DNA of 64,000 nucleotides from Synechococcus sp. PROS-9-1 (GTDB lineage Bacteria; Cyanobacteriota; Cyanobacteriia; PCC-6307; Cyanobiaceae), in NCBI RefSeq assembly GCF_014279775.1, contig NZ_CP047961.1:2170001-2234000 (forward strand), read 5' to 3'. How positions within the stretch are numbered: position 1 is the stretch's first letter; each line of letters opens with the position of its first letter. Positions 14,210 through 64,000 of the stretch are shown here, piece after piece. Under the pieces are notes generated by a model. The model saw nothing but the letters and a program-made list of their open reading frames with translations, was not told the origin of the DNA and made no database searches. The translations under genes and the position numbers were made by a program.

Positions 14210-14317
14210 ATGACCGCAACAACACTCCACGCACCAAAGGACCTCATCACCAGAGAAGTCGAAGGCCAAGGCAACGTTGACGGCCAAGAGCAACCCATGG
14301 CTTCGTTGCTGCCATAG
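14210..14317 (+). CDS. possible 35-residue mini-protein
   Basis: A 35-codon frame, MTATTLHAPKDLITREVEGQ then GNVDGQEQPMASLLP. It begins 43 bases after the inverted repeat. The composition is protein-like but there is no known domain. It could be a decayed remnant of a longer gene; three longer minus-strand frames cross the same bases but look like shadows. Confidence 0.3.
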   Translation: MTATTLHAPKDLITREVEGQGNVDGQEQPMASLLP

Positions 14318-14403
14318 CCACAAAATTGATCACTGGAGAAAACTTGCTGCGCGCCATCGAGCTTTGACAAAGCCTGGCCAGATCAATCCATTGGATGAAC
14401 AAC

Positions 14404-14583
14404 ATGAAACTTTTCTCGGCAATTGCTGCTATTACCCTGATGACTACTCCAGCCCAAGCAAGCATGGGGATGAGGGCCCCAAATCTCCTGATGGAAAAAC
14501 TCTATTACGCCGAAGGGCGTCAACACCCTGACCATCCACTGCATGGGTCTTTTTCCGGACTCTGTTGCGGAACGGATAGCTAA
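14404..14583 (+). CDS. small secreted protein with a YYAEGRQHP motif (copy 1)
   Basis: The 59-residue protein has an apparent signal peptide (MKLFSAIAAITLMTTPAQA, cleavage after AQA), so it is probably exported. The mature part is about 40 residues with the motif LYYAEGRQHPDHPLHGSFSG and then a CC pair. The same motif occurs in the gene at 62741: 24 of 28 residues match over NLL...GLC. The ATG at 14404 gives the better signal peptide than the one at 14395. Function unknown; the conserved short motif suggests a selected peptide rather than chance. Confidence 0.65.
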   Translation: MKLFSAIAAITLMTTPAQASMGMRAPNLLMEKLYYAEGRQHPDHPLHGSFSGLCCGTDS

Positions 14584-61325: not shown

Positions 61326-62039
61326 ATGAGTGCCATTGATGAAGCCACCCTTTGGGATCGGCTAGCCAATGCACGACGGATTCCATTGAATCCAACTTGG
61401 CTGGGAGAGATATTCTCTCCCAGCCTTTCTGATGAACTCCGTTTTGCGGTTGCTGAACGCTTGGGGATGTTGGCAGAAACAGGATGGCCAATCATCCGTA
61501 CCCTGATCCAACAGCACGGAATTCAGCCTGAATTAATCCATGCCGCCGGCCTTTGCCATCAACCTGAAGCAAAAGATTGGTTACTCACACAACTAAACCA
61601 ATCCAATGATCCAGATGCCTTCTTGCTCAACGCACTGAGTTGCTGGGGCGCCGAGCTGACCTATTCAGACTTTCAGCACATTCTGCAGTTGCCAAGTCAA
61701 GCCCAACGACTTGCTGGCTTAAATCTTCTCAGCTTCAAATCACATCAACTTCAAGCCAATGAATTGCTGCAGTTGTGTGAATCCACTCTGCAAGATTGGC
61801 GTGATCCCGTTGTCATCGCCTGCATACGCTTACTTCAGCGACGAGACGACATTGCCATTAGCACGAGGCTTAGCATTCTGGTCCAAGAAGGATCCGATGC
61901 TGTTGCCGAGGCTGCATTAAGAGCCTTGGGATGCATGGCCACAACTCATAGCAAAATGGCGTTGAAGTCATTAAGCGTAGAACTCACCAATCAAGAGCGA
62001 CGTGAGCAAGCCGTACGCCAGCTTCAGCAGCAATATTAA
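61326..62039 (+). CDS. HEAT-repeat-like protein
   Basis: A 237-residue all-helical protein: repeated helical pairs are visible (ELRFAVAERLGMLAETGWPI, AVAEAALRALGCMATTHSKM). It is likely a scaffold or adaptor; no catalytic site is seen. It follows focA by 11 bases on the same strand and converges with cynS. Its repeated link to nitrite genes would support a role there, but that is inference. Confidence 0.65.
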   Translation: MSAIDEATLWDRLANARRIPLNPTWLGEIFSPSLSDELRFAVAERLGMLAETGWPIIRTLIQQHGIQPELIHAAGLCHQPEAKDWLLTQLNQSNDPDAFLLNALSCWGAELTYSDFQHILQLPSQAQRLAGLNLLSFKSHQLQANELLQLCESTLQDWRDPVVIACIRLLQRRDDIAISTRLSILVQEGSDAVAEAALRALGCMATTHSKMALKSLSVELTNQERREQAVRQLQQQY

Positions 62040-62093: not shown

Positions 62094-62534
62094 TCACCAT
62101 TTTTTATAGGGTAAGAATTTTCCACACATCGTGATTTTCACCCGATCACCTTTTGGATCTTCAACCTTATCTACATCCAAAGTAAAATCAATAGCGCTCA
62201 TAATTCCATCGCCAAACTTTTCCTGGATGACATCTTTCATAGGCATTCCATAAACCTGCATGATTTCATAGAAGCGATAGATCAATGGATCTACAGGTAT
62301 TACTGGATCGAGACTTCCTTTCGTTGGAAACTCTTGCAGTGCAGAGGTAATGGCTGGATCTAGAGCCAACAAAGTTGCTAATTTCTCTGCTTCTTCAGGG
62401 GATGCGGTGGCCTGTCCATAAAAGAGGGAAGCAATCCAAACTTCATCGAGCCCAAGGGCCGCTTCTAGATCAGCAAAAGAAAGCCCCTTAGCCTTTTTTG
62501 CTGCCATGAGAGAAGCAGTAACCGTCGTTGTCAT
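62094..62534 (-). CDS. cynS: cyanate hydratase (cyanase)
   Basis: Cyanase turns cyanate and bicarbonate into ammonia and carbon dioxide, so cyanate can serve as nitrogen source. The 146-residue protein matches the family in length. The catalytic residues are visible: [11 protein letters not shown] with the Arg and Glu (about 95-98), and GIMSAIDF with the Ser (about 121). The N-terminal helical domain is [20 protein letters not shown]. The nearby nirA/focA/trpD2 genes belong to the same nitrogen set. Confidence 0.95.
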
Positions 62535-62740: not shown

Positions 62741-62959
62741 ATGTTTCTTTCCTCATTTGCGAATCAGTTAAATCAAATCCTGGATCAAGCCTTAAAAAGT
62801 ATCAATAGCTTCCTTATTAGCGACTCTTTGTCAGTCACACCTTCACTTGTGCACCAAACGTTTCCAAACCTGCTCATTGAACGTCTCTATTACGCCGAGG
62901 GGCGACAGCATCCATCCCACCCACTCCATGGAAGCTTTGCAGGCCTATGCACGAGCTAA
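62741..62959 (+). CDS. small protein with a YYAEGRQHP motif (copy 2)
   Basis: A 72-residue protein whose last 30 residues, LYYAEGRQHPSHPLHGSFAG then LCTS, repeat the motif of the gene at 14404. Here the N-terminal half (MFLSSFANQLNQILDQALKS) does not look like the other's signal peptide. The shared part is 24 of 28 residues identical, also in several silent positions. Function unknown. It lies between cynS and the trpD2-like gene. Confidence 0.6.
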   Translation: MFLSSFANQLNQILDQALKSINSFLISDSLSVTPSLVHQTFPNLLIERLYYAEGRQHPSHPLHGSFAGLCTS

Positions 62960-62984: not shown

Positions 62985-62998
62985 GTATCAATGACTAC
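62985..62998 (+). promoter_or_regulatory. perfect NtcA-type box before the trpD2-like gene
   Basis: GTA-TCAATGAC-TAC fits the consensus exactly. It lies 54 bases before the ATG at 63053 and just 2 bases before a double hairpin. A TAATTC at 63011 is a poor -10 at the wrong spacing, so the promoter role is likely but not proven. Confidence 0.55.
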
Positions 62999-63000
62999 CG

Positions 63001-63044
63001 CCAAAGGAGATAATTCTGCGGAACGATCTCCTTTGGTTCCGCGG
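63001..63044 (+). promoter_or_regulatory. two mutually exclusive hairpins in the trpD2-like leader
   Basis: Hairpin A: CCAAAGGAGAT (63001-63011) pairs with ATCTCCTTTGG (63026-63036), perfect 11 bp. Hairpin B: CTGCGGAAC (63016-63024) pairs with GTTCCGCGG (63036-63044), 9 bp with one G-U. The arms interleave and share base 63036, so both cannot form fully at once. This is the layout of a switch. Confidence 0.6.
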
Positions 63045-63052
63045 TCATATCA

Positions 63053-64000
63053 ATGGAAACGCCTCCACAAGCCAAAAAGCGAGCATATTTCAAGCAATTG
63101 CTACGCAAAATCGGCAGTGGAGAGCACACCAGCAAAGGGTTGACCCGAAGCGAAGCCGATGAGGCCATGGAGTTGATGCTCACGGGAGGAGCGTCAGACG
63201 TTCAAATCGGCGCCTTTCTGATCGCCCATCGCATTCGCCGGCCTGAACCTCAGGAGCTCACCGGCATGCTCGATACCTATAAAAGGCTTGGGCCCTGTCT
63301 TCTCAGTCAACCTGAGCAACGCCGGCCGATCTGCTTTGGCATGCCCTTTGACGGTCGATCTCGCACGGCACCGATCTACCCCTTAACGACCTTGCTGTTG
63401 GTGGGGTCCGGACAACCCGTGGTCTTACAGGGAGGGAGGCGAATGCCCGTGAAATTTGGAATCACCGCCGCAGAACTGTTCGCTGCCATCGGGCTCAACT
63501 TGAGCGGGCTGTCTATCAACGATGTTCAAACAGGATTCAACCTGCATGGTCTTGCCCTTATTTATCAACCGGAACACTTCCCCCTAGGCGAGGTTCTGCT
63601 GCCCGCTCGGGATGATCTCGGGAAACGCCCTCCATTAGCCAGCGCTGAGCTGCTCTGGACCGCACACCAAGGGCACCACCTACTTGTGAGTGGTTTTGTA
63701 CATCCGCCAACGGAAAGCCGAGCCTGGCAAGCCCTGGAACTAGCCGGAGAAAAGGACGTCATCACCGTAAAAGGCTTAGAAGGCGGCACAGACTTGCCTG
63801 TTAGTCGAGCCGGAATCACGGCTCGGATACACAACTCAGGGGAGCCTGAACGACACATCGTTCATCCCCGGGACCATGGCTGCTTCGGAGATGACCCCCG
63901 CTGGGAATCGGAGGAAGCCTGGGCTGCGCACGCCAAAGAGGCACTTCTGGGCCAAGGGCCCATGGCCGATTCCTTGCGTTGGAACACAGGCTGTTACCTC
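63053..64000 (+). CDS. anthranilate phosphoribosyltransferase-like (TrpD2/YbiB-type), partial
   Basis: The frame starts at the ATG at 63053 (METPPQAKKRAYFKQLLRKI) and runs off the right edge after 316 codons. It resembles the glycosyltransferase family 3 proteins: N-terminal helices with LTRSEADEAMELMLTGGASD (about 30-49), QIGAFLIAHRIRRPEP, and a PRPP-binding-like region (VLQGGRRMPVKFGITAAELF). It lacks the classic TrpD GTGGD loop at this site, so tryptophan synthesis is doubtful; the TrpD2 group binds nucleic acid or unknown ligands. Confidence 0.75.
   Translation, partial: METPPQAKKRAYFKQLLRKIGSGEHTSKGLTRSEADEAMELMLTGGASDVQIGAFLIAHRIRRPEPQELTGMLDTYKRLGPCLLSQPEQRRPICFGMPFDGRSRTAPIYPLTTLLLVGSGQPVVLQGGRRMPVKFGITAAELFAAIGLNLSGLSINDVQTGFNLHGLALIYQPEHFPLGEVLLPARDDLGKRPPLASAELLWTAHQGHHLLVSGFVHPPTESRAWQALELAGEKDVITVKGLEGGTDLPVSRAGITARIHNSGEPERHIVHPRDHGCFGDDPRWESEEAWAAHAKEALLGQGPMADSLRWNTGCYL

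Follow-up and report, generated by a model that had tools for sequence, protein, structure and literature searches.

Tiny proteins common to cyanobacteria and their viruses have been described before, as in the case of NblA, a phycobilisome degradation protein that is carried by some freshwater cyanophages, and NblA-like proteolysis adaptors bind both the phycobilisome and the Clp protease. The family of short C-terminal modules reported here is likewise found in tiny proteins of cyanobacteria and their phages but differs in that the module proteins have no Pfam match to any family. A second point of comparison is NirP1, which is also a small cyanobacterial protein linked to nitrite assimilation and to NtcA (PMC10907346). 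NirP1 homologs are reported to be mostly 76-86 residues long and to conserve one Cys and three Trp in their last ∼50 residues; four beta folds are predicted for them, and most marine Synechococcus reportedly have no NirP1 (PMC10907346). In contrast, no Trp or Cys is conserved in our alignment A4 of 36 host sequences, and both of our AlphaFold models predict helices only. Membership in the NirP1 family has been rejected, as neither the conserved residues nor the fold fits. PSHCP is a hyper-conserved small protein of unknown role in Prochlorococcus and marine Synechococcus (PMC4215834); it resembles the present family as a small conserved protein of the same clade, whereas it is described as identical in these two groups and the module family is variable outside the module. 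Among the matches listed, the module family has not been found described in the literature on small proteins or on the nitrate/cyanate cluster. Marine Synechococcus and their phages matter for carbon and nitrogen flow in the ocean, and most phage genes are without known function. A module found both in a selected host microprotein at the nitrate/cyanate locus and in many viral contigs offers a direct route to a possible viral target among the host proteins.

The window, a stretch of 64,000 nucleotides of the Synechococcus sp. PROS-9-1 genome, contains two tiny ORFs, copy 1 (a) and copy 2 (b), which have both been confirmed where the initial annotation had placed them (14404-14583 and 62741-62959, Table 1). 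As had been noticed there, 24 of 28 aligned residues are identical, and no match between the two proteins extends beyond this module. The underlying DNA is only 71% identical and carries 14 synonymous codon changes, with third positions differing at 17 of the 28 codons; the module match is thus kept at the protein level. When the whole 2.27-Mb genome has been searched with copy 1, copy 2 has been recovered at E = 1.5e-15, together with a third copy (c) that had escaped the earlier reading (G000:C1:668042, E = 3.0e-12). Copy c forms the C-terminal end of an ORF of 185 residues, the first part of which resembles Pfam TerB at E = 2.5e-4 with 21.7 bits, below the curated cut-off of 24.4. The ORF list offers an earlier in-frame ATG for copy 1 at 14395, yet the start at 14404 is preferred, because in the ortholog G026a the reading frame does not stay open beyond the corresponding Met on its upstream side.

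Table 1. Features of the window around the two module copies.
Feature	Position	Strand	Support
decayed hli-like gene just upstream of copy 1; two ends in different frames	14210..14367	+	
copy 1 (a), 59-residue small protein, signal-peptide-like N-terminus + module	14404..14583	+	ORF, genome search, orthologs
signal-peptide-like stretch of copy 1, ending ...PAQA	14404..14460	+	by eye; kept in orthologs
module of copy 1, 28 codons	14479..14562	+	alignment, dN/dS
conserved cluster protein of 237 residues, upstream of cynS; without a Pfam family at E<=1e-5	61326..62039	+	
cynS (cyanase), divergent from copy 2	62094..62534	-	Pfam Cyanate_lyase 1.5e-36
copy 2 (b), 72-residue small protein, amphipathic N-terminus + module	62741..62959	+	ORF, genome search, locus order
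module of copy 2, 28 codons	62864..62947	+	alignment, dN/dS
canonical NtcA-type site GTAN8TAC between copy 2 and cnaT-like gene	62985..62998	.	
hairpin between NtcA site and cnaT-like gene	63000..63037	+	z -3.73, compensatory changes
cnaT-like gene, Glycos_trans_3 family, continues past window edge	63053..64000	+	

The module comprises ∼30 residues and consists of a helix ending in LY, the residues D/E-G-R, a Pro/His loop, and a terminal (F/Y)-x-G-L. In marine Synechococcus the family is genuine and under selection, as had been supposed from the two copies, and both the low dN/dS and the dozens of orthologs speak for this. Across strains, strong purifying selection has been observed, with motif dN/dS of 0.002-0.107 by pairwise Nei-Gojobori comparison over the 28 codons. 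The pairs depend on one another, and some groups come close to saturation at synonymous sites, but the direction is clear. The individual values are 0.002 for the x paralogs (4 sequences), 0.027 for copy a (6 sequences), 0.041-0.064 for copy b (four groups) and 0.107 for copy c (4 sequences), and the signal region of copy a is looser than its module (0.163). G013a has been left out of the group of a, as its C-terminal end departs from the others; this copy (L108 4953-5141) diverges from the family past HPLHG in a frameshift-like manner. In the b copy of G255 (L146), one motif residue is X in one translation and P in another, probably owing to an ambiguous base.

A search for homologues across picocyanobacterial genomes has found the module to be widespread, in 27 of 30 other genomes of the window's genus, the three misses being 63-80% complete, and in 22 of 34 genomes of the sister genus g5 (15 of the 19 good ones). 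Within 250 genomes of the family with a completeness of at least 85%, 69 match the host profile at E<=0.05. We have counted 43 of these as real (E<=3.7e-7), which fall into the window's genus (25), g5 (16), g39 and g32 (one each), and have taken the other 26, with best E-values of 0.001-0.05, as chance, some after being read. Strong matches have been obtained in only 7 of 244 genomes of the phylum, all from the same family as the window; 13 of the 20 phylum-wide matches, at E = 0.0096 or worse, have been taken as chance, and a match in G042 (E = 0.006) has been dropped. A stricter DNA pattern has yielded WH7803 as its single match in 84,980 species genomes.

The proposal of a conserved C-terminal module set on different N-termini holds across picocyanobacterial genomes, given the three copies in this genome and the orthologs elsewhere, and several paralogs with new N-termini occur per host genome. 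The further proposal that the proteins are secreted or membrane-linked has fared unevenly. It agrees with copy 1, the N-terminus of which reads by eye as a putative signal peptide retained in orthologs, and with the x paralogs, whose N-termini appear signal-peptide-like on the same kind of reading, but it does not extend to copy c on its TerB-like protein. The N-terminus of copy b is strongly amphipathic in PROS-9-1 (0 of 2000 shuffles as high), while in four other b copies no significant amphipathicity has been found (fraction of shuffles 0.07-0.43).

What the initial annotation did not foresee is that uncultured viral contigs encode the module too, in a family that exceeds the host one in size and diversity. 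The viral link first emerged, without a motif filter, from a match of the host profile A1 to a 3.2-kb phage-like contig in G216 (E = 3.7e-7), and the 60-residue G216 protein as query has led to 56 IMG/VR loci, which keep [GNE]R in 56 of 56 and a YTGL-like end in 55. A degenerate DNA pattern has matched at least 120 stretches in IMG/VR; among the matches listed, each of the 80 viral loci has a tiny ORF whose product carries Y..DGR..P.HP.H..(Y/F)TGL or a sequence close to it. G007a and G216 have been left out of regex-based counts, as their motifs lie outside the regex. Residues that the pattern did not prescribe are kept as well, namely a Tyr or Phe three residues before [DE]GR in 80 of the 80 listed loci and [FY]TGL in 78, the Thr of which was left free. 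Counted from the nearest Met, the viral proteins range from 34 to 137 residues, with a median of 54 (76 loci among the matches listed). Alignment of the host and phage profiles with hhalign has given E = 4.2e-15 over 31 columns, with a phage set that is largely pattern-selected. The named Synechococcus phages KBS-S-2A, S-H1, and S-CBS3 match the profile at E-values of 9e-6 to 2.6e-4, in forms that are shortened and without the HPxH loop, and no profile match has been found in 6 of the 9 named cyanophage records searched. The ORF of the S-H1 member (L227 4998-5171) is not among the listed features and is overlapped by an annotated gene that runs the other way.

The neighbours of the viral genes include matches to DNA polymerase, helicase, primase, endolysin, sigma factor, and integrase (79 chosen ORFs from 17 sampled loci). 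For the tail protein of contig L262 the closest relatives are in the Prochlorococcus phages MED4-117 and MED4-184, although most records matching it are phages of other bacteria, and in L228 an 827-residue protein has weak matches, all of them to Synechococcus phages; these two proteins hint at picocyanobacterial hosts. In a tree of the 31 columns, which is too short for the direction of transfer, hosts and phages form separate clades with support of 0.80-0.98, and the phage sequences are more diverse.

Structure prediction with AlphaFold for a phage homolog, based on 47 viral sequences, has given a confident helix-loop-helix model with a pLDDT of 93.9, in which a helix at 4-34 is followed by a loop and a second helix at 50-55, and the window's copy 2 is predicted more weakly (pLDDT 76.9). 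With Foldseek, no PDB fold match has been found for the phage model. Against BFVD, two matches have reached a probability of 1.00, one of them to an S-CAM8 protein (E = 8.7e-3); this match has been set aside, as the protein has not been found in two S-CAM8 records. The viral profile also matches 19 residues of the SURP helix of PRP21 (PDB 5nrl, 4dgw) at E = 0.0077, but SURP/PRP21 belongs to a eukaryotic splicing factor, and the match is very short and without a Foldseek match in the PDB; the likeness is probably convergent. No Pfam match of the module has reached its curated cut-off for copies 1 and 2, the G216, L103, and L147 proteins, or six phage homologs; NCBIfam has given no match at E<=10 for copies 1 and 2, and PHROGs no significant hmmscan match for 16 proteins (best E-values 0.061-0.25). 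The extreme shortness of its members explains why the protein libraries searched have missed the family.

Compact in itself and combined with unrelated N-termini, the module occurs in cells as well as in viruses. Docking onto one host protein is the simplest mechanism we can offer. We consider it a plausible reading, if one held at somewhat below even confidence, that the module is a docking unit which would bind one conserved picocyanobacterial protein and which is used by hosts and phages. Hosts would attach different N-termini and thereby bring the module to different places in the cell, and phages would make a nearly bare module during infection that may occupy or redirect the same partner. 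Candidate partners are RNA polymerase, a regulator of nitrogen or photosynthesis, and a system of proteolysis or its adaptors. In its full form the proposal is more tentative: an undescribed host-virus docking module may be present as a microprotein at a nitrogen locus, be grafted onto signal-peptide and TerB-like carriers, be made nearly bare by many uncultured cyanophage-like viruses, and be directed to a single hub partner controlled by both sides. The separation of hosts and phages into different clades makes a shared partner less certain. Against the docking reading, too, copies with a signal peptide would act outside the cytoplasm, a place that a phage protein made bare would not reach; the six cyanophage records without a match and the weaker model of host copy b count on the same side.

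The place of copy b is constant, in a nitrate/nitrite/cyanate locus, which likewise had not been anticipated. In 40 of 41 b loci cynS lies upstream and in 40 of 41 a cnaT-like gene lies downstream, and the full order of nirA, nitrite transporter, 237-residue protein, cynS (reversed), b, cnaT-like gene, MFS, and ppk is present in 37 of the 41. Parts of it are found in the remaining four: in two, nothing but the first genes of the stretch is missing, G068, from another genus, has transporter, cynS, and b, and G020 has b, cnaT-like gene, MFS, and ppk. Pfam has confirmed nitrite reductase, formate/nitrite transporter, cyanate lyase, Glycos_trans_3, MFS, and polyphosphate kinase as cluster families. 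The name cnaT has been carried to the window gene by position and family from the downstream gene of WH7803, for which, as for cynS, putative NtcA sites are reported (PMC9430850). Copy b is embedded in DNA flanked by putative NtcA sites. Of the 41 loci, 37 have a canonical site near the b stop, at distances of -4 to +26 nt, and 3 of the other 4 have GTAN8AAC, and 5 canonical NtcA-type sites occur in the whole 64-kb window. The same canonical site as in the window's spacer between b and cnaT is reported for WH7803 (PMC9430850), where it lies 20 nt after the b stop. The published putative NtcA site of WH7803 cynS falls in the cynS-b spacer, and one putative cnaT site lies inside the b ORF (L109 4960-4973).

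This setting is what recommends a different explanation, namely that copy b is a dedicated nitrate/nitrite/cyanate regulator, functionally equivalent to NirP1 and directed at NirA, cyanase, or CnaT, with the other copies and the phage forms as later offshoots. Besides the gene order and the NtcA site at or after the b stop, it is favoured by the published site in the cynS-b spacer, by the reported absence of NirP1 from most marine Synechococcus (PMC10907346), and by the expression of WH7803 cynS, which is transcribed away from b and is reported to be about 274- to 289-fold up without ammonium (PMC9430850). We nevertheless regard it as unlikely. None of 58 module copies has a canonical GTAN8TAC within 250 nt upstream, and relaxed sites are not enriched in the cynS-b spacer (15 of 40, about 22 expected); direct activation of the module copies by NtcA has been dropped on these grounds. 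An obligate partnership of b and cynS is broken by G202, where b is missing beside cynS and the cnaT-like gene, and by G020, where b is present and cynS is not. Of 250 family genomes, moreover, 135 carry cynS, and many of these belong to genera in which b has not been found. The paralogs and phage forms are also located elsewhere.

Less probable again is that the host copies are domesticated phage proteins, serving as decoys or inhibitors against module-bearing phages. The greater diversity of the phage sequences beside a single host clade and the several paralogs with new N-termini per genome would suit this idea, but PADLOC has returned no significant hmmscan match for six proteins, with one weak match (E = 0.035) for the TerB-like protein, and copy b is fixed at one metabolic locus and not in a defence island.

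That the module is a small metal-binding peptide, through its HxxHxxH-like run, appears improbable to a marked degree. In the host alignment A4 H-P-x-H is invariant or nearly so, whereas among the 56 viral relatives the HPxH loop is kept in only 23, against the YTGL-like end in 55, and the KBS-S-2A, S-H1, and S-CBS3 forms lack it; a metal site has been dropped on the viral count.

Very unlikely, in our estimate, is a role of copy b as a leader ORF whose translation would control cnaT through the downstream hairpin. The two genes lie on the same strand, 93 nt apart in the window, and between them are the NtcA site and the hairpin, which may be a terminator or attenuator and in which both sides are changed at 2 of 19 pairs in 8 sequences from related genomes. 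Against such a role, the hairpin is seen in only 8 of 41 b loci, dN/dS is low over the whole module, and the paralogs and phage homologs have other neighbours. A chance resemblance between two spurious ORFs, which might be suspected as both are short and without annotation in the given material, is refuted by the within-genome E-value of 1.5e-15, the dozens of orthologs, and dN/dS far below 1.

Apart from these readings, copy 1 has a neighbour of its own, directly upstream, in a gene that we take to be hli-like from a sequence motif. An intact relative of it in L095 has no Pfam match at E<=1e-5, and a regex search has found no such frame at the G007a locus. The frame is intact directly upstream of the module gene in 5 of 7 a loci, looks altered in G013, and is broken in the window.
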